From: Geobacter sp. AOG2
GTDB taxonomy: Bacteria; Desulfobacterota; Desulfuromonadia; Geobacterales; Pseudopelobacteraceae
Direction: 5' to 3'
Assembly: GCF_019972295.1 (NCBI RefSeq)
Contig: NZ_BLJA01000001.1
Location: 1,086,049-1,150,048 of the forward strand
Length of the DNA stretch: 64,000 nt
In this document: one piece after another, positions 1,281-11,565 of the stretch
Position numbering within the stretch: position 1 is the stretch's first letter
Layout of the letters: every line of letters begins with the position of its first letter
Program-made: the position numbers and the translations under genes
The notes under the pieces: generated by a model
Told to the model about the DNA's origin: nothing
Database searches by the model: none
Seen by the model: only the letters and a program-made list of their open reading frames with translations

Positions 1281-3071
1281 ATGCCCGGACCGAACAGACT
1301 GACCCTTGAAAACTGTCTCCTGTTGCTACAACGACGCGGACTGCTCTCCCAAGAGCAACTGAAGGAGATCCTTTCGCGGGGAAAAGCCCAGGAAAGCAAG
1401 CTGTTCGCCCACCATCAAGCCGGTGCATCGCGCAGGGTCCAGCACGGCGCTGAGATTATCTCACCGGTGGAGGTGATCGCCTCCTTCAATCTTGAACTGT
1501 CAGGATCCCCCGGAAAATTCCTTACCGAAGATGTCATTACCGAGGTTGTGGCCACTGCCGTCGGCATGCCCTATCTCAAGATAGACCCCCTCAAGCTTGA
1601 CCTGGATGTGGTAACTGCCCACATCCCGCGTCCCTTTGCCCTTAAAAATCTGATCGTTGCCGTTGCCGAGGATAAGGGAGCCATAACGGTGGCGGTGGCG
1701 GATCCGTTCAACGATGCCATGATAAAAGAGTTAGCCGGCGCGCACCGTCTCGAAATCAGGCGCGTCCTCAGTTCCAAAAGCGATATTCTCAAAATCCTGC
1801 GCGAATTCTACGGGTTCCGCGCCTCGGTCGTGGCGGCCGAGGCCGAGGCGTCATCCGGCGTTGACCTGGGAAACCTGGAGCAACTCTTCAAGCTCAAGGG
1901 GCAACAGGATATTGAAGGGAACGACAAACATGTGGTGACGGCGGTCGATTTTCTGCTGCAATATGCCTTTGACCAGAACGCGAGTGATATCCATATCGAG
2001 CCCAAACGGGAAAAATCCCTGATCCGCTTCAGGATCGACGGTGTCATGCACAATATCCACATGATCCCCAAGCCACTCCATGCCCCGATCGTTTCACGCA
2101 TAAAACTGCTTGCCCGCATGGACCTGGCGGAAAAACGCCGCCCACAGGACGGGCGGATCAAAACCAGTTCCAACAGTAAGGATGTGGAACTGCGCATCTC
2201 AACCGTTCCGGTCGCCTTCGGCGAAAAGGTGGTCATCAGGATCTTCGATCCCGACATCCTGTTGCAAGATTTGGACAGTATGGGATTCTATCCCCGAGAA
2301 CTGGCGCTCTACAACTCCTTCATCCGGAGGCCCAACGGCATCATCCTCGTTACCGGTCCGACCGGCAGCGGCAAGACCACTACCCTGTATTCGTCCTTGC
2401 GCTCCCTGTCATCCCCCGAGGTGAATATCATAACCGTCGAAGACCCGATCGAGATGGTCATGGAGGAGTTTAACCAGATAGGCGTGCAGCAGGCCATCGG
2501 TGTCGGTTTTGATACCATCCTGCGCAATATCCTGCGTCAGGACCCGGACATCATCATGATCGGCGAAATCCGTGACCGTGAGACCGCTGAGAATGCCGTG
2601 CAGGCGGCCCTGACCGGTCATCTTGTGCTTTCCACCCTCCATACCAACGACTCGGCGTCGGCCATCGTCCGCCTGCTCGATTTGGGGGTGCCGTCATTTC
2701 TCATCTCCGCCACGGTTATCGGTATTGTGGCGCAGCGGTTGCTGCGCAGGATCTGCCCCCACTGCAAGCGTGAACGTGAGTTGACCCACGATGAACGCCA
2801 CTACCTGCACCTCGGCAAAAAGGCGTGCAGGGTATGGGAAGGGGAGGGGTGCAAGGAATGCCGTTCCACCGGTTACAAAGGGCGTACCGGTATCTTTGAG
2901 GTGCTGGACATGACGGAGCGGGTCAAGTCGCTGGTTACCGGTTCGGTGGAACTTGGAGACCTGCTGGCCGCCGCCCGTGAGGACGGTTTGGCCTCTCTGC
3001 GTCAGATCGCCATCCAAAAGATGCTGGAAGGGACCACGACCTATGAAGAGGTCGTTGCCATGACGGGATGA
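1281..3071 (+). CDS. GspE/PulE/PilB-family secretion or pilus assembly ATPase
   Basis: This 596-residue protein is a hexameric traffic ATPase that would power type II secretion, type IV pilus or a related machine from the cytoplasmic face. The N-terminal part (to about residue 170) resembles the MshEN/GspE N-terminal domain. The core carries Walker A (GPTGSGKTTT, about residues 358-367), an Asp box (ITVEDPIE), Walker B (DPDIIMIGEIRD), a His box (LVLSTLHTND) and the tetracysteine zinc site typical of GspE/PilB (CPHC followed about 25 residues later by CKEC). No other secretion or pilus genes are next to it, only the two-helix protein upstream, so the machine it serves is undetermined. Confidence 0.93.
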   Translation: MPGPNRLTLENCLLLLQRRGLLSQEQLKEILSRGKAQESKLFAHHQAGASRRVQHGAEIISPVEVIASFNLELSGSPGKFLTEDVITEVVATAVGMPYLKIDPLKLDLDVVTAHIPRPFALKNLIVAVAEDKGAITVAVADPFNDAMIKELAGAHRLEIRRVLSSKSDILKILREFYGFRASVVAAEAEASSGVDLGNLEQLFKLKGQQDIEGNDKHVVTAVDFLLQYAFDQNASDIHIEPKREKSLIRFRIDGVMHNIHMIPKPLHAPIVSRIKLLARMDLAEKRRPQDGRIKTSSNSKDVELRISTVPVAFGEKVVIRIFDPDILLQDLDSMGFYPRELALYNSFIRRPNGIILVTGPTGSGKTTTLYSSLRSLSSPEVNIITVEDPIEMVMEEFNQIGVQQAIGVGFDTILRNILRQDPDIIMIGEIRDRETAENAVQAALTGHLVLSTLHTNDSASAIVRLLDLGVPSFLISATVIGIVAQRLLRRICPHCKRERELTHDERHYLHLGKKACRVWEGEGCKECRSTGYKGRTGIFEVLDMTERVKSLVTGSVELGDLLAAAREDGLASLRQIAIQKMLEGTTTYEEVVAMTG

Positions 3072-3154: not shown

Positions 3155-4432
3155 CTATTTTGCGATGGTTTGTGCCTTCATCTGCCGGGCAAGGTAATTG
3201 GCCGCATAGATATAATCGTCGATCCCGTCGTACCTGCCGTCGCCGTTCAGGTCATGCTGCGCCGGAGTCTTGGCGGCATCCTTGAGGAAAGTGGCAAATT
3301 CAACCTCCGTAGAGGCCGCATTCTTGATAGCCGGGGCAATGGTCAGCGGATATTCGGTGACATGATTCTCGCTGAGTACCATCAAGCTTGCGCTCAGCAC
3401 ACCCTTTGTTGGCAGGGCTTCAATATACCATGTGGGTGAGGTGTCACTCTTTCTCAAGGAAACCAGTTTGGCGCCATTCAGGGCAAAATTGGGCGAACCG
3501 CCCGACTCTGCCGAAAGGTCGGCGGCTATGGTCACGGTGGTTGTGCCGTCGCTCAGAGCGACAAAGGGCTCCTGGCGGAAAGATGCGGAAATTTGTTCCT
3601 TGAAGAGGGCGATCAGGATGGCGGGGGTTTTCTCCCCTTTGTAGGCTCTGAACCGCTCAAGCACCGCCGTGTTGGATGCGGTGGCGATAGTCTCGGCTTT
3701 TTTCGTCTTTGCCGCCGCAGTCTCGTTCACGGCTGGTGTTTCGATTGTGGGCGCCGCCTCGGTTGCGGAGGGGGTGGGCGCTTCGGCCGGTTTGGCGCTT
3801 CCTTCCGGCGCAGGTGAAGGAGGTGTTTTTGTTTCATGCTGAGACTGACTGTCCGATGGCATGGTGACCGTGCCGAGATAGGTGGGGCCTGAATTGCCGG
3901 TGGTGGTAGTATTGGTAGTGGTGGTGCCGCTGGTACCGTTACTGCCGCGATTGGTGTTGCTGCTGGTTGTTTCGTTACTGGTGGTGCCGGTAGTATCGCT
4001 GCTGGTTGTGTCGCCGGTTGTGATACTGCCGCTTACCGTCGCGCCGCTACTGTTTATCGGGCTGAAGCTGGCTACGGTGACACTGCCTGTTCCCGAATGG
4101 GTTCCAAAGGTAATGGTGGCGATCGGACCGCTACCGGAAAAGGATTTGGTGCTGACAGCCGCAATTTTGATGCTAGTTTTGGAATAATTGGGGTTGGCGG
4201 CGAACATTGCTCCGGAGACAAGCGCTCCCTGGCTTATTGACGGCGACGCCAGGACGGTGGCGTCGTAATTCAGGACGAGGTCGAAACCGGAGACGCCGTC
4301 CATGTCGCTTGCCTGGACCGTGTAGACGCCGTTACCCTGGGAGGTGACCGACACCGATGCGCCCAAGGCAAGCGAGGCGCTCAACAGGAGCAGAATCGCG
4401 GCCGTGACTATTGGTCTGATATGTGGAGTCAT
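3155..4432 (-). CDS. Exported protein with cohesin-like and dockerin-like modules
   Basis: This 425-residue protein has a signal peptide (cleavage expected after LALG, residue 24), a cohesin-like beta-sandwich (about 25-137; SGFDLVLNYDATVL and GPIATITFG are typical strands), a long low-complexity Thr/Ser/Asn linker (about 138-185), a Pro/Ala/Thr-rich stretch (200-250), a further folded region (about 265-385) and a C-terminal Ca-binding dockerin-type loop (DLNGDGRYDGIDDY). Cohesin-dockerin pairs hold extracellular complexes together; carrying both suggests a linking or self-associating role. It has its own predicted promoter, and a hairpin separates it from the lipoprotein gene upstream. The start is supported by AAAGAGA 8 bases upstream. 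Function beyond binding is not known. Confidence 0.8.
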   Translation of the reverse strand: MTPHIRPIVTAAILLLLSASLALGASVSVTSQGNGVYTVQASDMDGVSGFDLVLNYDATVLASPSISQGALVSGAMFAANPNYSKTSIKIAAVSTKSFSGSGPIATITFGTHSGTGSVTVASFSPINSSGATVSGSITTGDTTSSDTTGTTSNETTSSNTNRGSNGTSGTTTTNTTTTGNSGPTYLGTVTMPSDSQSQHETKTPPSPAPEGSAKPAEAPTPSATEAAPTIETPAVNETAAAKTKKAETIATASNTAVLERFRAYKGEKTPAILIALFKEQISASFRQEPFVALSDGTTTVTIAADLSAESGGSPNFALNGAKLVSLRKSDTSPTWYIEALPTKGVLSASLMVLSENHVTEYPLTIAPAIKNAASTEVEFATFLKDAAKTPAQHDLNGDGRYDGIDDYIYAANYLARQMKAQTIAK

Positions 4433-4470
4433 GGTTTATCTCTTTCTGTCGAATGGATTTTATATGTATG

Positions 4471-4499
4471 AGCATAGCTTAGGGTTGCATCGAATTCAA
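4471..4499 (-). promoter_or_regulatory. Predicted sigma-70 promoter of the cohesin/dockerin gene
   Basis: On the minus strand TTGAAT (4499-4494) and TATGCT (4476-4471) are separated by exactly 17 bases, about 40 bases upstream of the ATG at 4432. This fits separate transcription of this gene from the oxidase operon. Confidence 0.45.
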
Positions 4500-4593
4500 T
4501 CTGATTATGGCATGAAAATGGATCAATGGAACGCCAAGTATTCTTTAAAATTTTTATCATAGGTATGCATGAAGTTGGGCGCTGGAAATGGAA

Positions 4594-4626
4594 TTTGGCA
4601 GCGGTGAATCAAACACCGCTGCCAAA
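4594..4626 (-). terminator. Hairpin terminator after the lipoprotein gene
   Basis: A perfect 13-bp inverted repeat (4594-4606 with 4614-4626, 7-base loop) lies just downstream of the lipoprotein stop on the minus strand. The T-tract that follows is modest. It probably ends the multicopper oxidase operon. Confidence 0.65.
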
Positions 4627-4657
4627 CAGGTGAGGATAGGGTACCTGCCTTGATCAG

Positions 4658-5218
4658 TTACTGATACGTGGTTTCAAAATTTGTTTCGCTGCCGGGCGGG
4701 TAACTCGTATCGTGGGTGGCAAGCGTCTCCTGACCAACCAGTGCTGAAGTGTCTTTTAACGGCATGGAGGACGTGGGGAGCGTCCCTGGTGTTGCGAGGC
4801 TAAAGTTGATCGTGGCGATTTCCTTCCCCATGCCGGTTGCCCCGCTTTTCAGAGCAATCCTTGAATTGTTTACGAGAGAGAGCGTCAGAACCCGGCTATC
4901 AAGATCATACGTGCTTAGACTGAAGTCGGATGCGGAAACCTGCACAGGTCCCGATGGAACAATCACCCCTTTACGCAATGTGCAGAGGCCGGTTGTGACC
5001 CCGGGTGCGGACGAATAATTCACCAGCACGCCGTTGGGAATATTCAGGGTGGTACTGACCGTTGCCACAATGTTGCCTGCGGATGTGATATTACCGAACA
5101 GTGAGACCTTTGTTACCGCCTTGGTTACCGATCCTCCACCACCTCCGCCCCCGCCACAGCCAACAAGCGCCAGTGCTGAAAAAATGCAGATCATTGCTGG
5201 TTTGATATATTTTTTCAT
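4658..5218 (-). CDS. Lipoprotein with poly-Gly anchor, possible cohesin-like fold
   Basis: This 186-residue protein begins with a lipoprotein signal ending in a lipobox (ALVGC) and a run of eight glycines right after the Cys, so it should be membrane-anchored on a flexible tether. The body is beta-rich; ATINFSLATPG resembles the cohesin strand IATITFG of the neighbouring exported protein, but cohesin assignment is only an inference. The start at 5218 is chosen because AGGAGAG precedes it and the lipobox then falls at the expected place. It lies 60 bases downstream of the multicopper oxidase and would be co-transcribed, so anchoring that oxidase is an attractive idea. Confidence 0.75.
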   Translation of the reverse strand: MKKYIKPAMICIFSALALVGCGGGGGGGGSVTKAVTKVSLFGNITSAGNIVATVSTTLNIPNGVLVNYSSAPGVTTGLCTLRKGVIVPSGPVQVSASDFSLSTYDLDSRVLTLSLVNNSRIALKSGATGMGKEIATINFSLATPGTLPTSSMPLKDTSALVGQETLATHDTSYPPGSETNFETTYQ

Positions 5219-5278
5219 AAAATAACTCTCCTGGAAGGTAGTAGAGGAAGGCCTCCTCTCCGGAGGCCTTCCAGGCAA

Positions 5279-8200
5279 TTAGAATGTTGCTATCAGCCCT
5301 ACGCTACGAAGCATGATGGTGTAAACATCAAGCAGATCAATTTTCCCGTCGGGGTGTGCCGCCCCGCCGGAATAGGGTGCAACGTCACCATGAACGAGGT
5401 CCAACGGCGTGGGCGACGAGAGGCCGGCGGCGATGCGGAGCGCCTTCAGGGCGCTGGCCACGTAGCTGCTGGTGCCCGGCAACAAGGCATCTTTGCTACC
5501 CAGAAGGATTGAAGCCGTGATGGGCGGATAGGTCGTGCCGCCACCCAGGTTGGTGTCGGTGAATCTCACGTACACGGTTTTCAGACCCTCGCCGCTGGTC
5601 AGAGTCCAGCTTGGCGTGATGGTCACGTTGGCCCCCGCAGATGTATCAGGCGAGGCAAATGGGCCGGACCAGACCGAACCGTCGTTGGAGAGTTCATAGC
5701 TGGCAATGCCGGTGGGATCGAAGGCTTTTAGCGTCAGAGTGACATTTTGCGTCGGTGTCCACGTTGCTCCGTTGTTGATCAGGGCGCTGGCGACCAGGTC
5801 AATCGTCGCCATGCTCCATACAGCGGTATTGACGGCCTCCTGGTTGCCGGCACTGTCGACGGCGAAGTATTTGATGGTGGTTGACGAGCCGGCGGCGGTA
5901 TTGATCTGAATCGGGGTGGCGTAGACCAGTGAACCCGTTGTGGGTGTGCTGCCGTCGGCGGTGTAGTAGATGGTGGCGGTTTCGTTTGCCGTCAGGGTGA
6001 CCGCAAGCGAACTGCCGTTGGTGTACGAGCCGGGAATCGGGCTCGGTGTGGTGACCGGCGGGGTCGTGTCCAGAATGATGGTAGCGGTTATCGGAGGATA
6101 CTGCACGCCCGTGGGGAGCGATTTATCGCGGAAGCGGACATAGACTGTGCGTGGTCCATCACTGCCTGTGAGCAGGGTCCAGGTCTTGCTGGTGGCGTAG
6201 GGCTCCTCGCCGCTCCAGTTGGTGCCGTCGTTCGAGAATTCCATAGTGGCGACGCCGACCGGGTCGTAGGCGTTCAGGTTCAGGGTGACGGCCAGGGTTT
6301 TGGTCTGGGCCGCGCCGTTGTTGATCTGCATGGTGGCCACAAGGTCCGGCACATGGATGTACCAGGTGTCGCTGTGGACCGCCTCGGCCGTGCCGTTTAC
6401 GTCAACGGCAAAATAGTTGATGGTGGTGGTCTGGGTCAGCGTGATCGGCCCGGTGTACGGCGGCATGGCCGTAGTGGGGGTGGTGCCGTCCAGGGTGTAG
6501 TAGATTCCGGCAACCGGCACCAGCGGATTGGGCGCTGTCGCCGTCAGGGTGACCACTACCGGTTCCGCCGAATAGACGGCAGGGACCGGACTGGCGACCG
6601 TTACCGGCGGGCTGGGCGGGCTGTTGACCACATGGGTAATGGTATTGGTTGCAACGGGGTTCTGGCCTGCGCTGGTGCGGGCCTCGACCGTGATGGTATA
6701 GCTGCCGACCGCGGCTGTATCCGGCAAGGTCCATAGGTTTTTGGTGCTGAAAGCCTGGACCTCGGCGCCATTGAGCAGGAAGCGGTACTGGTAGACCACG
6801 GCCAGGGCAGGATTGCTCGATGTTGCACCCGTACCGGCGGCGGTGAACGAAACATTGGAGCCGACCACATGCCCAACCGGCTTGCTGTCGGTGATGGTCA
6901 CGCCGGTGGCGTCGGTCCAGGTAGCCGTAGTGACCGGGGTGCTCGTTGCCGGGGCTGATTGAGTGTTCGGTGCTCCGAAGTCGTTCAGGGAGATTACGGC
7001 GTAGGTATATGCCGTCCCCGGGTTGACATTGGTATCGGTATAGATTGGCGGATAACCCGGCAGATAGGATATTTCGCCTAATGTGGTATATGAGCCGGGG
7101 TATGTGGGCGCTGCGCCGGAAGCACGCAATACCTGGAAACGACTGGGAGTGGAAACGGGAGCGTTGTCCGTCCACTGGAGCACGATCTGGTTAATGTTCG
7201 TGTTGGTGTATGGGGTTATGTAGTTGGTCAGCCCCGGTACCGTATCACCGCCAATGTAGGCGGCCAGACCAGACGGAGCGGCAGGAGGCCCGGAGGATAT
7301 GCTGAACACAACCGGCCGCATGAAGTCGTTTTCCTCATGGCCGAGAATGTGGCAGTGCCAGACATATTCGTAACCGTAGTCGGTTGGTATGTTGGGAACA
7401 GTCACGGCAAGACCCGCAACCGGCGTGCCCCCCTGACCGAGGTTGCCGATGTCGGTCGTTGAAATAGGTGCGTTGAGGGCCTGGGACGGATCGATGAGAC
7501 GCACACTGTTGGTGAGCGTAAAGGGTAGTGTCTGCGACCTTGGCCGCAGGGCAACAATGATGTCCTCCAACGGATTCATGCGGACGGTTTCGTTCCAGCC
7601 CAGTTCGTTGTCGTCCGGCGGACGGATGGCGCCGTCCCAGCCGACCCTGTTAAGGACTTGTACGTCGAACATATGGAAATGGACCGGGTGGGTATCGACA
7701 CCGTTGTGGGTGATCTTCCATATCTGCGGGTGGCCGTCCACGATACGCTCCGTGGCCGGTTCGGCGTAGCCCATGGGGATGGTCGTCTGGTTGAGCTGGG
7801 TTGTGAAGGGAAGCTCGATCCCCAAGGTGGCGTTCATGCGCCCGTAGGGGTCCCACAGTTCCTGGATGGCCTTGGGCTGGAAGGGTATGGTGACCGGTAT
7901 GGCGCTTGGGGTGTAGTCACGATTCAATGGATTCAGGGTTATGGAGTAATCCTGGATCTTGGCATACTGTTCCGTCGGTGCGGTAACGCCCCACGCCGCC
8001 ACGGGATAGGTCGGCTCCGGTATCAGAGGGGCCGGCTGGCTGGCCTTGAATGCCGTCGGCAGAGCTGCCTGGAGGTTTGCCAGCAGGTTTGGATTGGGCT
8101 GTGGAGTACCTGCTACCCGGAACTGCATAATGGTGCGGGTGTTGGGGCCGTACCCGCGCAGGGTCGACGGAGCGCCGCCACTTGATGTCTGGTCGGGATC

Positions 8201-10045
8201 GCCGGTGTAGTAGTCGATACGCGTGTCGAAGGCCGGGACCGGTGCCGGAGCGTCGTTATAGAGGATAATGTTCTTGCCGATGTATTTCGGGTCGGAAAAG
8301 TCGATGATCACATCGGCCCGTACCGCTGAACCCAGGAAGAGGTTCTTTTCCTGAACATTGAGGACAACGATGTCGCGGCGGTTATAGTTGTAGTTGACCG
8401 GCTGGTTGGGATGAACTACCGGGTTGGGCAGAATGCCGCTCTCATTGCCGATTTGGATGATCTTCGGACCCATGGTGGCCGGGTCGGGTACGCCACCGGC
8501 TCTGCCGTCCGTGGGCCATACCGCTACATCCGGGAACGGCCCGGCCGGATAGGTCGGATTGGGGACGGCATCGACCATCTTGACTTCCGTTCCCAGCGGG
8601 TCGTTGGGGTCTGCGACAAAGAGGCTCAGGTTGAGCATGCGGTCGTTGGAGGCATTCAGTATGCGGAACCGGTACGGCTTGGGCTCTACCGTCATATAGG
8701 GGTAGGCGGTGCCGTTGACCAGCATGGTGTCCATGAATGCTTCCGGTGTTGTCGAAGGCTCGGGCAAGATGGACTTGTCCGCCGCTATGGATACCGGCGG
8801 CCAGAACCAGGGGCCGTAATCCCATCGTCCGAAAGGATTGGCTCCGGCCGGGCTGGTTGGATCCTGATTGGCCTCATAGACATGGGGGAACCAGAGATCG
8901 CCGTAGACGCCCCAATTATTGGCAACCCCTTTGGAATTCTTTGTCCAGAGGGCATCCTGGGTGTCTATATTTTGGGGAACAAAGCTCTTGTCCTGGATGA
9001 TCAGGGGAATCCCGTAGCGGTATTCACAGACCGCCGTCCCGCCGCCGGGGCAGATGTTCGGAAACGTCCCGTTGTCGATCAGCGACTCCTCGACCGAGTC
9101 GGTTATCAGGTAGCCCGCAGCCTCACCGGCATAGACGTTCAGGCGGGTTATCCCGAGAGCGTGGTCGTGGTAGAACATCATGCGCCCGCTCTGCTGGTTG
9201 GTCCAGTAGAAGGTCAATTCCCCGGGGTTTGTCGGCACCATGTCGGGCACATCCCTGGCAGAGGCGCCCTTCTGGTAGGGGGTGGATATCTCGTTGACCG
9301 GCACCGTCCATTGGTGAGGGGTGCCGTCGCTGATCCAGGGGGTGTTGCCGCCATGGAGATGAACCGAGGAGCGGTTCTGCGTGTAGTAGCCGCTGTAGTT
9401 GGTAAACGCGGGAACGGCGGCGCCGATCGTACTGGGAATTGCGGAGGTGGTTACCGCAGGCCCCCGTCCGGCGCCCATAAGGCTGAGATCGGTCGGGATG
9501 AAGAGCTTGCCGGCATTACCCGTGGGCAGCATATTCCGGAACCTGATACGGACCGGTACATCCCTTTTGGCGATGATCAGAGGTCCCAGGTACTGGGTCG
9601 ACATGTTGGCAAAACTTGGGTTGAGATCGCGATAGCCGCGCAACCGGGTTTTTTTCGGCAGGTCGGAGTGCATCTTTTCGGAATACTCCACCAAACCGAT
9701 TTCATAATAGTCGGAAGCGGGTATCTGGGTCACGCCATCGGTTGCGACCGTTGCCGGGAATGCGGGGCTGGTGACCTTGTTGGCAATCGGGATGAAGTTC
9801 CCCAGGTTGTTCTCGTTGCAGGTTCCTGTGCCCGGCGGGCTGCTCATGGTACAATTGGGGAGACCCAAACCCGGAAGTCTGTCGACAAACTTTCGGAGCG
9901 CCGTGCCCGTGACGCCTCCGGCAGGGCTGTTGGCGTAGTAGGTGCCGCCCCCCGGACCTGCCTGGACCAACGGAGGGCCGCAGAGGAAAACGGCAATTAT
10001 TGCCAGCATAAATCGCATCAACATCCAGATCGGTTCTCTTTTCAT
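5279..10045 (-). CDS. Giant extracellular multicopper oxidase with dockerin-like tail (OmpB/OmpC-like)
   Basis: The 1588-residue protein has an N-terminal signal peptide (residues 1-29, ending LVQA). All four copper motifs are visible: HLHG (229-232), HDH (293-295), HPVHFH (about 800) and HCHILGHEENDFM near 910, which holds type 1, 2 and 3 ligands including the axial Met. After the oxidase come a fibronectin III-like region, two repeated beta modules with chitobiase-C-like strands (INYFAVDVNG, IKYFAVDSAG) and a C-terminal dockerin-like module (HGDVAP, then PDGKIDLLDV). Geobacter OmpB and OmpC are surface multicopper proteins needed for Fe(III)/Mn(IV) oxide reduction; homology to them is inferred from architecture. 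AGAGGGG supports the start. It follows FKBP genes and precedes a lipoprotein gene. Confidence 0.88.
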   Translation of the reverse strand: MKREPIWMLMRFMLAIIAVFLCGPPLVQAGPGGGTYYANSPAGGVTGTALRKFVDRLPGLGLPNCTMSSPPGTGTCNENNLGNFIPIANKVTSPAFPATVATDGVTQIPASDYYEIGLVEYSEKMHSDLPKKTRLRGYRDLNPSFANMSTQYLGPLIIAKRDVPVRIRFRNMLPTGNAGKLFIPTDLSLMGAGRGPAVTTSAIPSTIGAAVPAFTNYSGYYTQNRSSVHLHGGNTPWISDGTPHQWTVPVNEISTPYQKGASARDVPDMVPTNPGELTFYWTNQQSGRMMFYHDHALGITRLNVYAGEAAGYLITDSVEESLIDNGTFPNICPGGGTAVCEYRYGIPLIIQDKSFVPQNIDTQDALWTKNSKGVANNWGVYGDLWFPHVYEANQDPTSPAGANPFGRWDYGPWFWPPVSIAADKSILPEPSTTPEAFMDTMLVNGTAYPYMTVEPKPYRFRILNASNDRMLNLSLFVADPNDPLGTEVKMVDAVPNPTYPAGPFPDVAVWPTDGRAGGVPDPATMGPKIIQIGNESGILPNPVVHPNQPVNYNYNRRDIVVLNVQEKNLFLGSAVRADVIIDFSDPKYIGKNIILYNDAPAPVPAFDTRIDYYTGDPDQTSSGGAPSTLRGYGPNTRTIMQFRVAGTPQPNPNLLANLQAALPTAFKASQPAPLIPEPTYPVAAWGVTAPTEQYAKIQDYSITLNPLNRDYTPSAIPVTIPFQPKAIQELWDPYGRMNATLGIELPFTTQLNQTTIPMGYAEPATERIVDGHPQIWKITHNGVDTHPVHFHMFDVQVLNRVGWDGAIRPPDDNELGWNETVRMNPLEDIIVALRPRSQTLPFTLTNSVRLIDPSQALNAPISTTDIGNLGQGGTPVAGLAVTVPNIPTDYGYEYVWHCHILGHEENDFMRPVVFSISSGPPAAPSGLAAYIGGDTVPGLTNYITPYTNTNINQIVLQWTDNAPVSTPSRFQVLRASGAAPTYPGSYTTLGEISYLPGYPPIYTDTNVNPGTAYTYAVISLNDFGAPNTQSAPATSTPVTTATWTDATGVTITDSKPVGHVVGSNVSFTAAGTGATSSNPALAVVYQYRFLLNGAEVQAFSTKNLWTLPDTAAVGSYTITVEARTSAGQNPVATNTITHVVNSPPSPPVTVASPVPAVYSAEPVVVTLTATAPNPLVPVAGIYYTLDGTTPTTAMPPYTGPITLTQTTTINYFAVDVNGTAEAVHSDTWYIHVPDLVATMQINNGAAQTKTLAVTLNLNAYDPVGVATMEFSNDGTNWSGEEPYATSKTWTLLTGSDGPRTVYVRFRDKSLPTGVQYPPITATIILDTTPPVTTPSPIPGSYTNGSSLAVTLTANETATIYYTADGSTPTTGSLVYATPIQINTAAGSSTTIKYFAVDSAGNQEAVNTAVWSMATIDLVASALINNGATWTPTQNVTLTLKAFDPTGIASYELSNDGSVWSGPFASPDTSAGANVTITPSWTLTSGEGLKTVYVRFTDTNLGGGTTYPPITASILLGSKDALLPGTSSYVASALKALRIAAGLSSPTPLDLVHGDVAPYSGGAAHPDGKIDLLDVYTIMLRSVGLIATF

Positions 10046-10128
10046 AATGCCCCTCTCTTTGCCTGGTGAAAAGTCATTCGCTACACGTTTTCTCGAATAT
10101 TGAATAGTCTCGACCGTAGGTCGTGCCT

Positions 10129-10464
10129 CTATGGTCTTTTGTCACCGGCAGCCTCCCTTTTTGACAGCGACTGTTTTCGCCGTATGTCGCTCTGAACAGA
10201 GATCAGGATGCCACGCAGTTCTTTTTCGGAAACAAGAAGCTGCCCGCCGGACAATCCATCCCGCATGCCTTTAATAACCATATCCAGGTCCAATATCATT
10301 CCCTGGTTTTTGAAATTTCTGGCAACCTCAACCCCTATAGCGTACTGGATTTTATCGTTGGAGGACTTAAAGGGTTGTTTGTCTTCCCCACGGGACGGGG
10401 TAGCAATAAGACATATTCCCGTCAGGGCCAGCAGATACAGGGGTATGAACGTTACACGCTGCAT
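10129..10464 (-). CDS. Exported FKBP N-terminal-domain-only protein
   Basis: This 111-residue protein has a signal peptide (cleavage near SRGE, residue 26) and then a region matching the N-terminal dimerisation domain of FkpA/Mip-type FKBPs (DKIQYAIGVEVARNFKNQGM, then DLDMVIKGMRDGLSG). The catalytic FKBP domain is missing. It ends in a charged tail. The full FKBP encoded 430 bases upstream has the matching N-terminal domain, so this may be a truncated paralogue able to dimerise with it; that is inference. It is in the same minus-strand run as the multicopper oxidase, 83 bases upstream of it. Confidence 0.75.
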   Translation of the reverse strand: MQRVTFIPLYLLALTGICLIATPSRGEDKQPFKSSNDKIQYAIGVEVARNFKNQGMILDLDMVIKGMRDGLSGGQLLVSEKELRGILISVQSDIRRKQSLSKREAAGDKRP

Positions 10465-10497
10465 GGGGACTCACTTTCTCTATATTAAATAGCTTCG

Positions 10498-10878
10498 TCA
10501 TTGCCTACTGTTCATAATCTTCAGGAGACGCGCCGCCTTAGCGTTCTCCATCGTGTCTACCGCCAGGCGACGCTGCTGGTGGCTACCGGGCGCCTGTGGC
10601 AAGGGGGGGCTCTGGGAGTCCGGCCCCATGAATTCGTTCCGGGCAGCAGGCGCGGCAGAGATGGCGACGGTCGATTCTTGCGGAGCAGTTTCGACTGTTG
10701 GAGCCGCAACGCGAGTTGCAGAAGCATCCGGCGATACCGGGGCAGTTACAGAATTTCCCGTACAGCCAGCCTCTACGTGATCAGGATACTCGATGACCAC
10801 ACACTTATCGGAGGCGTGGAGCGCCGAGCATGTCAGCAGCGTCAAAGCAATGGTCAATATCAAATGTGTTCGCATCAT
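10498..10878 (-). CDS. Small exported protein of unknown function
   Basis: I do not recognise this 126-residue product. It has a signal peptide (cleavage after LHAS, about residue 23), a short region with two cysteines that could form a disulfide (DKCVVIEYP and EAGCTGN), a disordered Ala/Pro/Ser/Thr-rich middle and a short helical C-terminus (ENAKAARLLKIMN). It begins 15 bases after the FKBP stop and is 33 bases before the FKBP-N gene, so it belongs to the same operon. The ribosome binding site is weak, which fits translational coupling. Confidence 0.6.
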   Translation of the reverse strand: MMRTHLILTIALTLLTCSALHASDKCVVIEYPDHVEAGCTGNSVTAPVSPDASATRVAAPTVETAPQESTVAISAAPAARNEFMGPDSQSPPLPQAPGSHQQRRLAVDTMENAKAARLLKIMNSRQ

Positions 10879-10893
10879 GCTTGCGCCCGTAAC

Positions 10894-11565
10894 CTACTTT
10901 TTCACATCGAGCAGTTCCACCTCGAAAACCAGGGTAGCTCCCGGCAGGATCAGGTCACCCGCTCCGGCATCACCATAGGCGATGGCTGCGGGGCATACGA
11001 ACTTTGCTTTACCGCCAACCTTCATCTTCTGCAACCCCTCGGTCCAGCACTTGATGACACCGTCCAGGCGGAGTTCGGTTGGCTTGCCGCGTTTGTACGA
11101 GCTGTCGAATTCTTTACCATCAGGCAGAGTCCCACGATAGTTGACCTTAACCGTATCGGTCGGGCCCGGAGTGATACCGGTTCCCTCTTTCAGTGAGAGG
11201 TACACCAAACCTGAATCGCTTTTGACCGCACCCTGTTCCTTGGCCGCCTTGTCGAGAAAATCCCTGTTTGCCGCCACCTGGTTTTCTCCTTGGAGCTTAC
11301 GGCGTGTCCGAGCCAACTCCTGCACTTTGGCGTTGTAGACACCGAGATCGACTTTCGGGGTCTTGCCGCTTACGGCGTCGGTGAGTCCTTGTTTAACCAC
11401 TTCGAGTTCCGTCGGGGTGAGGTTAAAAACGGAAAGCGAGCGGGATACCATCAGGCCGAGAGCATAAAGCGTCTTCTGCTCCTCGGTTTTTGGTATGTCA
11501 CCGGCACATGCCGCGCTGGTAAAAAGGAGAACCAAACCAGCCGCTATATGCATCTTCATGTTCAT
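10894..11565 (-). CDS. Periplasmic FKBP-type peptidyl-prolyl isomerase (FkpA/Mip-like)
   Basis: This 223-residue protein has a signal peptide (cleavage near ACAG, residue 21), an FKBP N-terminal dimerisation domain (about 30-110) and a C-terminal FKBP catalytic domain (VKVNYRGTLPDGKEFDSSYK, then the AIAYGDAG and LVFEVELLDV segments). It would speed proline isomerisation and act as chaperone in the periplasm. It is the first gene of the minus-strand run leading to the proline-rich, 1588-residue multicopper oxidase, so a dedicated folding role is plausible. AGAAGGAAA upstream supports the ATG at 11565; an ATG two codons later is possible. Confidence 0.92.
   Translation of the reverse strand: MNMKMHIAAGLVLLFTSAACAGDIPKTEEQKTLYALGLMVSRSLSVFNLTPTELEVVKQGLTDAVSGKTPKVDLGVYNAKVQELARTRRKLQGENQVAANRDFLDKAAKEQGAVKSDSGLVYLSLKEGTGITPGPTDTVKVNYRGTLPDGKEFDSSYKRGKPTELRLDGVIKCWTEGLQKMKVGGKAKFVCPAAIAYGDAGAGDLILPGATLVFEVELLDVKK

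Follow-up and report, generated by a model that had tools for sequence, protein, structure and literature searches.

The genome of Geobacter sp. AOG2, a single contig of 3.92 Mb, encodes a 1588-residue multicopper oxidase (MCO) that ends in a dockerin-like module, and the next gene encodes a lipoprotein with a predicted cohesin-like fold. We analyzed a 64,000-nucleotide stretch of this contig (positions 1086049-1150048; here called the window), in which the oxidase gene lies at 5279-10045 and the lipoprotein gene, here LIPO, at 4658-5218, both on the minus strand. From structure prediction and comparative genomics, we propose that LIPO serves as a tether for the oxidase by way of a cohesin-dockerin contact, a reading to which we assign a probability of roughly 0.72. 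The oxidase would be exported and then held at the cell envelope by LIPO, its tail plugging into the cohesin-like domain to give a one-to-one enzyme-anchor pair. Because the same kind of gene pair stands beside many other exported proteins of the order Geobacterales, these genes may point to a so far undescribed mode of envelope tethering. The question of how relatives of Geobacter keep exported proteins, copper oxidases among them, at the envelope is linked to metal reduction.

The dockerin-like module comprises the last 71 residues of the oxidase (5279-5494, minus strand, including the stop codon) and was recognized by a family profile and by modeling with AlphaFold2 (AF2). The model has three helices, a predicted local distance difference test (pLDDT) score of 96.1, and the paired loop-helix motifs of the dockerin fold. 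When compared with solved structures by VIA-align, all 19 listed PDB entries were dockerins (Z score up to 9.4; root mean square deviation [rmsd] 1.8 over 63 of 71 residues), and in Foldseek dockerin chains took ranks 1 to 16. A profile built from eight MCO tails (A2) was searched in 57 genomes, and related stretches were present in 40 of them, including Geobacter sp. AOG2. Dockerin_1 (PF00404) is matched by 22 of 47 tail-family members at an E value of 0.001 or below and by 28 at 1 or below, with a best value of 1.7e-9. The top five PDB matches of the wider tail-family profile are cellulosomal dockerins, at weak E values of 0.003 to 0.01; a PDB search with the eight MCO tails only gave weak matches, kinases among them. 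Many tails show a duplicated Asp-rich loop plus helix with an insertion in the second loop (DVAP...PDGxIDxxD), and the oxidase keeps this second calcium loop with its insertion. By its model, the tail has a dockerin fold, in agreement with the first-pass annotation of this DNA, which had read a dockerin-like module at the end of the 1588-residue oxidase.

LIPO begins with MKKYIKPAMICIFSALALVGC, in which a lipobox ending in ...LVGC is followed by eight Gly residues. Lipoboxes were called by a rule of our own, not by a signal-peptide program; the Cys is invariant in 42 of 42 rows of the LIPO alignment, rows that were themselves selected by a lipobox rule. The alignment used for folding consisted of compact lipoproteins picked by their position next to tails, not by cohesin likeness. 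The resulting AF2 model is almost all beta (mean pLDDT 84.8; predicted template modeling score 0.77), with a predicted cohesin-like beta-sandwich at residues about 31-186. In VIA-align, cohesin chains filled all ranks from 1 to 40 and 45 of 50 rows, with Z scores of 8.4 to 6.0. The best match was 1aoh_A (Z 8.4; rmsd 3.0; 122 residues), and the first non-cohesin fold appeared at rank 41 with Z 6.0, a value that pilin and adhesin domains reach. Foldseek likewise placed cohesins at ranks 1 to 4, with probabilities up to 0.96. On these models, LIPO is a lipoprotein with a cohesin fold. The first-pass annotation had likened its strands to those of a cohesin and had held that its anchoring proposal would fall if the lipoprotein lacked a cohesin fold; structure prediction yields such a fold. 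LIPO as a plain Pfam cohesin is ruled out by the absence of a Cohesin match, and because this sequence test came out negative we do not file it as one; in its working, the system would resemble a cohesin-dockerin pair.

Within the oxidase family, tail and lipoprotein occur together. In a first set of relatives, comprising 40 MCO loci, LIPO was present at 7 of 7 tailed loci, and 1 of 28 untailed loci with downstream sequence had a lipobox gene. In a collection of named genomes, a lipobox gene lay next to 6 of 6 tailed and 8 of 60 untailed MCO loci. The two counts were merged with the window included, four repeats dropped, and 25 oxidase frames without 600 nucleotides of downstream sequence set aside. 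After merging, all 13 distinct tailed MCO loci are followed by a lipoprotein of 175-206 amino acids (aa) in which four or more of the five residues that follow the Cys are Gly, whereas a lipobox gene comes next at 9 of 84 distinct untailed loci and is LIPO-like at none. These nine genes mostly encode proteins of 257-1306 aa; one, in L250, is a frame of 245 aa that has two Gly. In three Geothrix/Holophagaceae loci (L256, L287, and L297), untailed oxidases are followed by Gly-rich lipoproteins of 794-1306 aa with Gly after the Cys. A lack of co-occurrence in other genomes had been named beforehand as a finding that would speak against the proposal; instead, LIPO accompanies all 13 tailed oxidases. 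The pair is also present in a culturable member of the order, Geomonas sp. Red32 (L245). Because the arrangement is conserved across genomes, it is more than chance.

The pairing recurs among tails on many kinds of exported protein. We examined 110 distinct C-terminal tails. They comprise the listed A2 matches that were fetched (30 loci and 80 further places) together with the tails of L108 and L110; two internal tails, repeats, and tails with less than 600 nucleotides downstream were removed. This set leaves out most weaker listed matches and all unlisted ones, and it includes the window tail and close orthologues from sister species. A lipobox gene came next in 73 of the 110 cases, compared with 13 of 324 control genes, which were taken from oxidase and secretion neighborhoods, not from whole genomes. 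In the lipoproteins next to 67 of 110 tails, versus 2 of 324 controls, two or more of the five residues following the Cys are Gly. Against exported-like controls, of which 10 of 199 had a lipobox gene next, the Fisher p value was 9e-32. A first pass with a stricter lipobox rule, which was then relaxed once, had given 54 of 110 tails versus 6 of 324 controls. By eye, seven of the 73 are doubtful, being another lipoprotein (L195, L219, and L226), wrong-looking (L217, L229, and L236), or seemingly off-frame (L180), and, of the 37 misses, two (L172 and L157) resemble lipoproteins. Among the misses, another tailed protein is next in L162 and L205. Genes for CxxCH (cytochrome-like) proteins are next in L156, L182, L190, L193, L221, and L228.

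We then compared divergence of the tails with that of their lipoproteins, using the 73 pairs minus the seven doubtful ones and L138 (masked bases). Tail and LIPO distances correlate across these 65 pairs (Spearman 0.37; 0 of 999 permutations) and across 47 dereplicated pairs (Spearman 0.29; 0 of 999 permutations). The correlation also stood when LIPOs were shuffled within genomes only (0 of 1999 permutations). Tail and lipoprotein are co-inherited, and each lipoprotein may be specific for its own partner; the pairs would then offer many ready-made, possibly orthogonal binding pairs.

At an E value of 1e-9 or below, the tail was found in 4 of 148 sampled genomes of the phylum, that of Geobacter sp. 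AOG2 included, all four belonging to Geobacterales. Geobacter sp. AOG2 has seven proteins with the tail at this threshold, the MCO among them. A tailed 678-aa Ig/Fn3-repeat protein is followed by a 180-aa lipoprotein, a tailed RCC1 protein by a 691-aa lipoprotein, and a tailed subtilase, itself preceded by a tailed Cu-oxidase_3 protein, by a 264-aa lipoprotein; a tailed 1098-aa protein has no lipoprotein next. The Pfam scan of tailed proteins covered the oxidase, the Cu-oxidase_3 protein, the subtilase, an RHS-like protein, the RCC1 protein, and the Ig/Fn3-repeat protein. The RHS-like case, at L110:9496-16452, is a tailed 2319-aa RHS/FG-GAP repeat protein with SpvB-/TcdB-like Pfam names, followed by a 178-aa lipoprotein. 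The first-pass annotation had pictured one small complex; the pair of tailed oxidase and LIPO stands, and it seems to be a single instance of a gene-pair pattern extending across the order.

Several observations weigh against tethering by LIPO. The window tail alone matches no Pfam family at an E value of 1 or below, its link to the family being by profile and alignment only; its first calcium loop is degenerate (KDALLPGTSS), and the best Foldseek E value of its model is only 0.21. For LIPO, Foldseek found nothing at 0.001 or below (best E 0.027), and the VIA-align Z score of 8.4 is near that tool's range for models without a clear match. No Pfam family was matched by LIPO; Cohesin appeared in just 1 of the 42 alignment rows (E 0.034) and was not among the Pfam families of 19 long lipoproteins. 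A PDB profile search with LIPO returned chance-like matches only, mainly on the Gly stretch. Profile-profile comparison of LIPO families with the cohesins of type II secretins, described below, was not significant (E 0.036-0.057; probability about 1%), although in this comparison the long lipoproteins align to the secretin cohesins in the expected C-terminal register. In addition, for 37 of the 110 tails the lipobox rule finds no lipoprotein in the next gene, and the 110 tails are not independent because close orthologues are included. Since linked genes are inherited together in any case, the correlated distances show that each pair is passed on as a unit; they are no proof of contact. The earlier proposal that the lipoprotein may anchor the oxidase through cohesin-dockerin contact is sustained in the predicted folds and the strict co-occurrence within the MCO family, but not in any Pfam or profile match of LIPO to cohesins.

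The catalytic part of the oxidase is CotA/bilirubin-oxidase-like, CotA laccase being the nearest solved structure in a phmmer search of the PDB, and is followed by chitobiase-C/Fn3-associated repeats. Cu-oxidase_2 and the CHB_HEX_C/Fn3_assoc repeats score over their Pfam cut-offs and Big_7 under its own. The copper motifs HLHGG, HDH, HPVHFH, and HCHILGHEENDFM are retained. The last of these has Phe at the presumed axial position of the type 1 copper, as do four of five aligned tailed oxidases, the others having Met; in laccases, non-Met axial ligands accompany high potential. The anchored oxidase would have a redox role. Between the MCO and LIPO genes, a stem-loop with an 11-bp stem (5219-5278, minus strand) stands ahead of the LIPO ribosome-binding site, with a minimum free energy of -26.2 kcal/mol and a z score of -2.36 against shuffles. 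Such a stem-loop is present in five of seven tailed loci, with differing sequences (z of -2.4 in the window, -3.1 in L035, -1.2 in L036, which is not above shuffles, -4.2 in L037, and -2.6 in L038), and in neither L039 nor L040. It may determine in what ratio the two proteins are made. A terminator scan did no better than shuffles, with 9 found versus 9.7 expected.

On the minus strand, the gene order is FKBP, 126-aa protein, FKBP_N-only protein, MCO, LIPO, and COHDOC, and all open reading frame (ORF) coordinates of the first-pass annotation were confirmed. The leading gene (10894-11565, minus strand) encodes a 223-aa FKBP-type peptidyl-prolyl isomerase with Pfam FKBP_N and FKBP_C (FKBP_C E 6.6e-28), and a 111-aa protein with only an FKBP_N domain (E 1.4e-10) is encoded at 10129-10464, minus strand. 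Both FKBP-related proteins described as leading the operon are present, with a further gene between them. This gene (10498-10878, minus strand) encodes the 126-aa protein, which matched no Pfam family and has relatives at many MCO loci, tailed and untailed.

COHDOC (3155-4432, minus strand) has an N-terminal signal-like segment, a cohesin, and a single C-terminal EF-hand-like repeat; its export, like that of the FKBP proteins and others, was judged from N-termini by reading. The Cohesin match at residues 38-126 (4055-4321, minus strand) has an E value of 6e-5 and scores 23.7 bits as a protein, just below the cut-off of 24.1; in the genome search it passes with 27.5 bits. Relatives score 24.9 (L035), 30.9 (L058), and 35.5 bits (L112), and that in L036 has no match as a protein. 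A PilB/MshE-like ATPase gene (1281-3071) converges on COHDOC and is likewise its neighbor in L036 and L058. COHDOC had been credited with both a cohesin-like and a dockerin-like module and cast as the possible linker between lipoprotein and oxidase. The cohesin stands, but the C terminus (DLNGDGRYDGIDDYIYAANYL) is a single EF-hand-like repeat, half a dockerin instead of a duplicated one. COHDOC adjoins LIPO in the window, L035, L036, and L037 and lies near it in L058. It also stands beside untailed MCOs in L057 and L061, and it was not found next to three of eight tailed MCOs (L038, where 1.4 kb is left after LIPO, L039, and L040). A role as linker is therefore not supported.

The second Pfam Cohesin match in Geobacter sp. 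AOG2 is at the C terminus of its type II secretin (L107:8731-11313; Cohesin E 8.7e-13, Secretin E 1.7e-36), within a Pul/Oxp-like cluster that also has ATPase, pseudopilin-like, and cell-division-like genes. The Cohesin family occurs in 47 of 57 genomes, and 26 of 30 loci from the Cohesin search (L077-L106) have secretins ending in a cohesin. Of the eight secretin loci that were read over a longer stretch, six (L112-L117), chosen for two cohesins close together, carry a COHDOC relative behind the cohesin-bearing secretin; L107 and L118 have none there. Since COHDOC occurs beside untailed MCOs and near cohesin-ended secretins, it more likely belongs to secretion. Single ORFs with a Pfam cohesin and a full tail, resembling adaptor scaffoldins, were also seen at G003:C1:117820-119820, G005:C1:542815-545010, G017:C6:125612-127567, and G027:C3:183392-185407.

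Export of the oxidase would probably proceed through the organism's own Pul/Oxp-type type II secretion system, and the FKBP and FKBP_N proteins would probably assist folding of the oxidase. From the presence of cohesins at both the secretin and the lipoprotein, one may infer that tailed cargo could encounter a cohesin at each; speculatively, the secretin cohesin could receive or hand over the cargo, which would be a possible reason for the type II secretin of these genomes ending in this domain. The poly-Gly stretch would then act as a flexible tether of LIPO. Across Geobacterales, large exported proteins of many kinds share the tail, and the next gene often encodes what would be the matching lipoprotein. 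A broader scheme, in which cohesin-bearing secretins export tailed cargo, each cargo is captured by its own lipoprotein, and a reversible calcium-dependent contact lets cargo pass between cohesins, is one that we hold only tentatively as an order-wide plug-and-socket display. If it is true, oxidases, proteases, and giant repeat proteins would be specifically addressed to the outer surface of Geobacterales cells.

We considered whether the tail could instead be a type II secretion or sorting signal, read by the secretin cohesin or perhaps by COHDOC, with LIPO as a pilot or hand-off helper and not a lasting anchor. Such a signal would fit the Pul/Oxp-type secretins that end in a cohesin (26 of the 30 loci), the presence of the Cohesin family in 47 of 57 genomes, and the occurrence of COHDOC behind the secretin in six of the eight loci, and it would supply the common partner needed by the 37 tails that have no neighboring lipoprotein. 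However, untailed MCOs of this family, seen at 84 distinct loci, are common, which means that this kind of enzyme can in general do without the tail, and one dedicated LIPO for every tailed protein is more in keeping with anchoring than with an export factor common to all. We thus regard a sorting signal as possible but unlikely. A three-part complex, in which LIPO holds the dockerin-like end of COHDOC and the cohesin of COHDOC holds the oxidase, appears improbable. COHDOC is indeed beside LIPO in the window and three other loci and near it in L058, and ORFs that join a Pfam cohesin to a full tail exist in G003, G005, G017, and G027, yet the single EF-hand-like repeat, the occurrence of COHDOC by untailed MCOs (L057 and L061), the three tailed ones next to which it was not found, and a stem-loop that separates it from LIPO all argue against such an arrangement.

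Tethering by LIPO also leaves a choice of membrane face. LIPO may bind the tail and face the periplasm, so that the oxidase is held under the outer membrane. Outer-membrane lipoproteins sort to the inner leaflet by default, and FKBP proteins are usually periplasmic folding helpers; on the other hand, the very large repeat proteins and the subtilase among the tailed proteins fit the surface, and we consider the periplasmic arrangement rather unlikely. Given binding, we lean moderately toward anchoring on the outer face, and the outer face of the outer membrane appears a more likely location for LIPO than the periplasm. It is very unlikely, in our view, that LIPO is a generic Ig-like or adhesin sandwich whose cohesin likeness is coincidental, in an ordinary operon without binding. 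The lack of a significant sequence or profile link between LIPO and cohesins and the middling Z scores, with pilin and adhesin domains reaching 6.0, are what such a sandwich would give. It would leave aside that cohesins and no other sandwiches occupy ranks 1-40, that the partner independently models as a dockerin, and that the presence of a tail predicts LIPO both within the MCO family and across other proteins.

The core proposal, that LIPO would anchor the oxidase, is well supported by the models and the gene pairing, and no such dockerin-lipoprotein pairs appeared in the titles and abstract beginnings of the papers listed on Geobacter, dockerins, cohesins, and secretins, a body from which subscription papers were largely absent. 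Geobacter genes with dockerin, cupredoxin, and laccase domains were found to be highly expressed in soil (PMC6199725); that paper links the dockerin, laccase, and Fn3 genes to the use of cellulose or to Fe(III) reduction, and no anchor gene or pairing is reported in the available part of it. Anaerobic methanotrophic (ANME) archaea and their sulfate-reducing partners also have cohesin and dockerin genes, described as adhesins or scaffoldin-like (PMC9012536, PMC10553843). The likeness is that these are non-cellulolytic organisms with extracellular electron transfer; the difference, as far as the accessible portions of the two papers go, is that no cognate Gly-tethered lipoprotein per dockerin protein is described there. 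OmpB and OmpC of Geobacter sulfurreducens are large MCOs of the same general kind, and secretion of OmpB requires the Pul system (PMC3543383); in Geobacter sp. AOG2, a secretin in a similar cluster bears a cohesin. Unlike the window oxidase, the MCO of this family in genome G040 (L043) has neither a tail nor a lipoprotein next to it.

The closest parallel is the cellulosome, as in the pair from Clostridium thermocellum (1ohz), where a dockerin at the C terminus of an exported enzyme binds a cohesin on a cell-bound protein, an arrangement matched here by a predicted dockerin-fold tail and a cohesin-fold partner. A cellulosome as such appears unlikely for Geobacter sp. AOG2, whose two Pfam Cohesin matches (COHDOC and the secretin) lie in different proteins, leaving no multi-cohesin protein by this model; no search for carbohydrate-enzyme families was made. 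In place of a scaffoldin with repeated Pfam cohesins, a single cohesin-like domain sits on a lipoprotein encoded beside its cargo, the tails have an insertion in their second calcium loop, and LIPO is too diverged for the Pfam Cohesin model. If our proposal is true, cohesin-dockerin assembly reaches beyond the breakdown of cellulose and serves a redox enzyme of a Gram-negative order as well.

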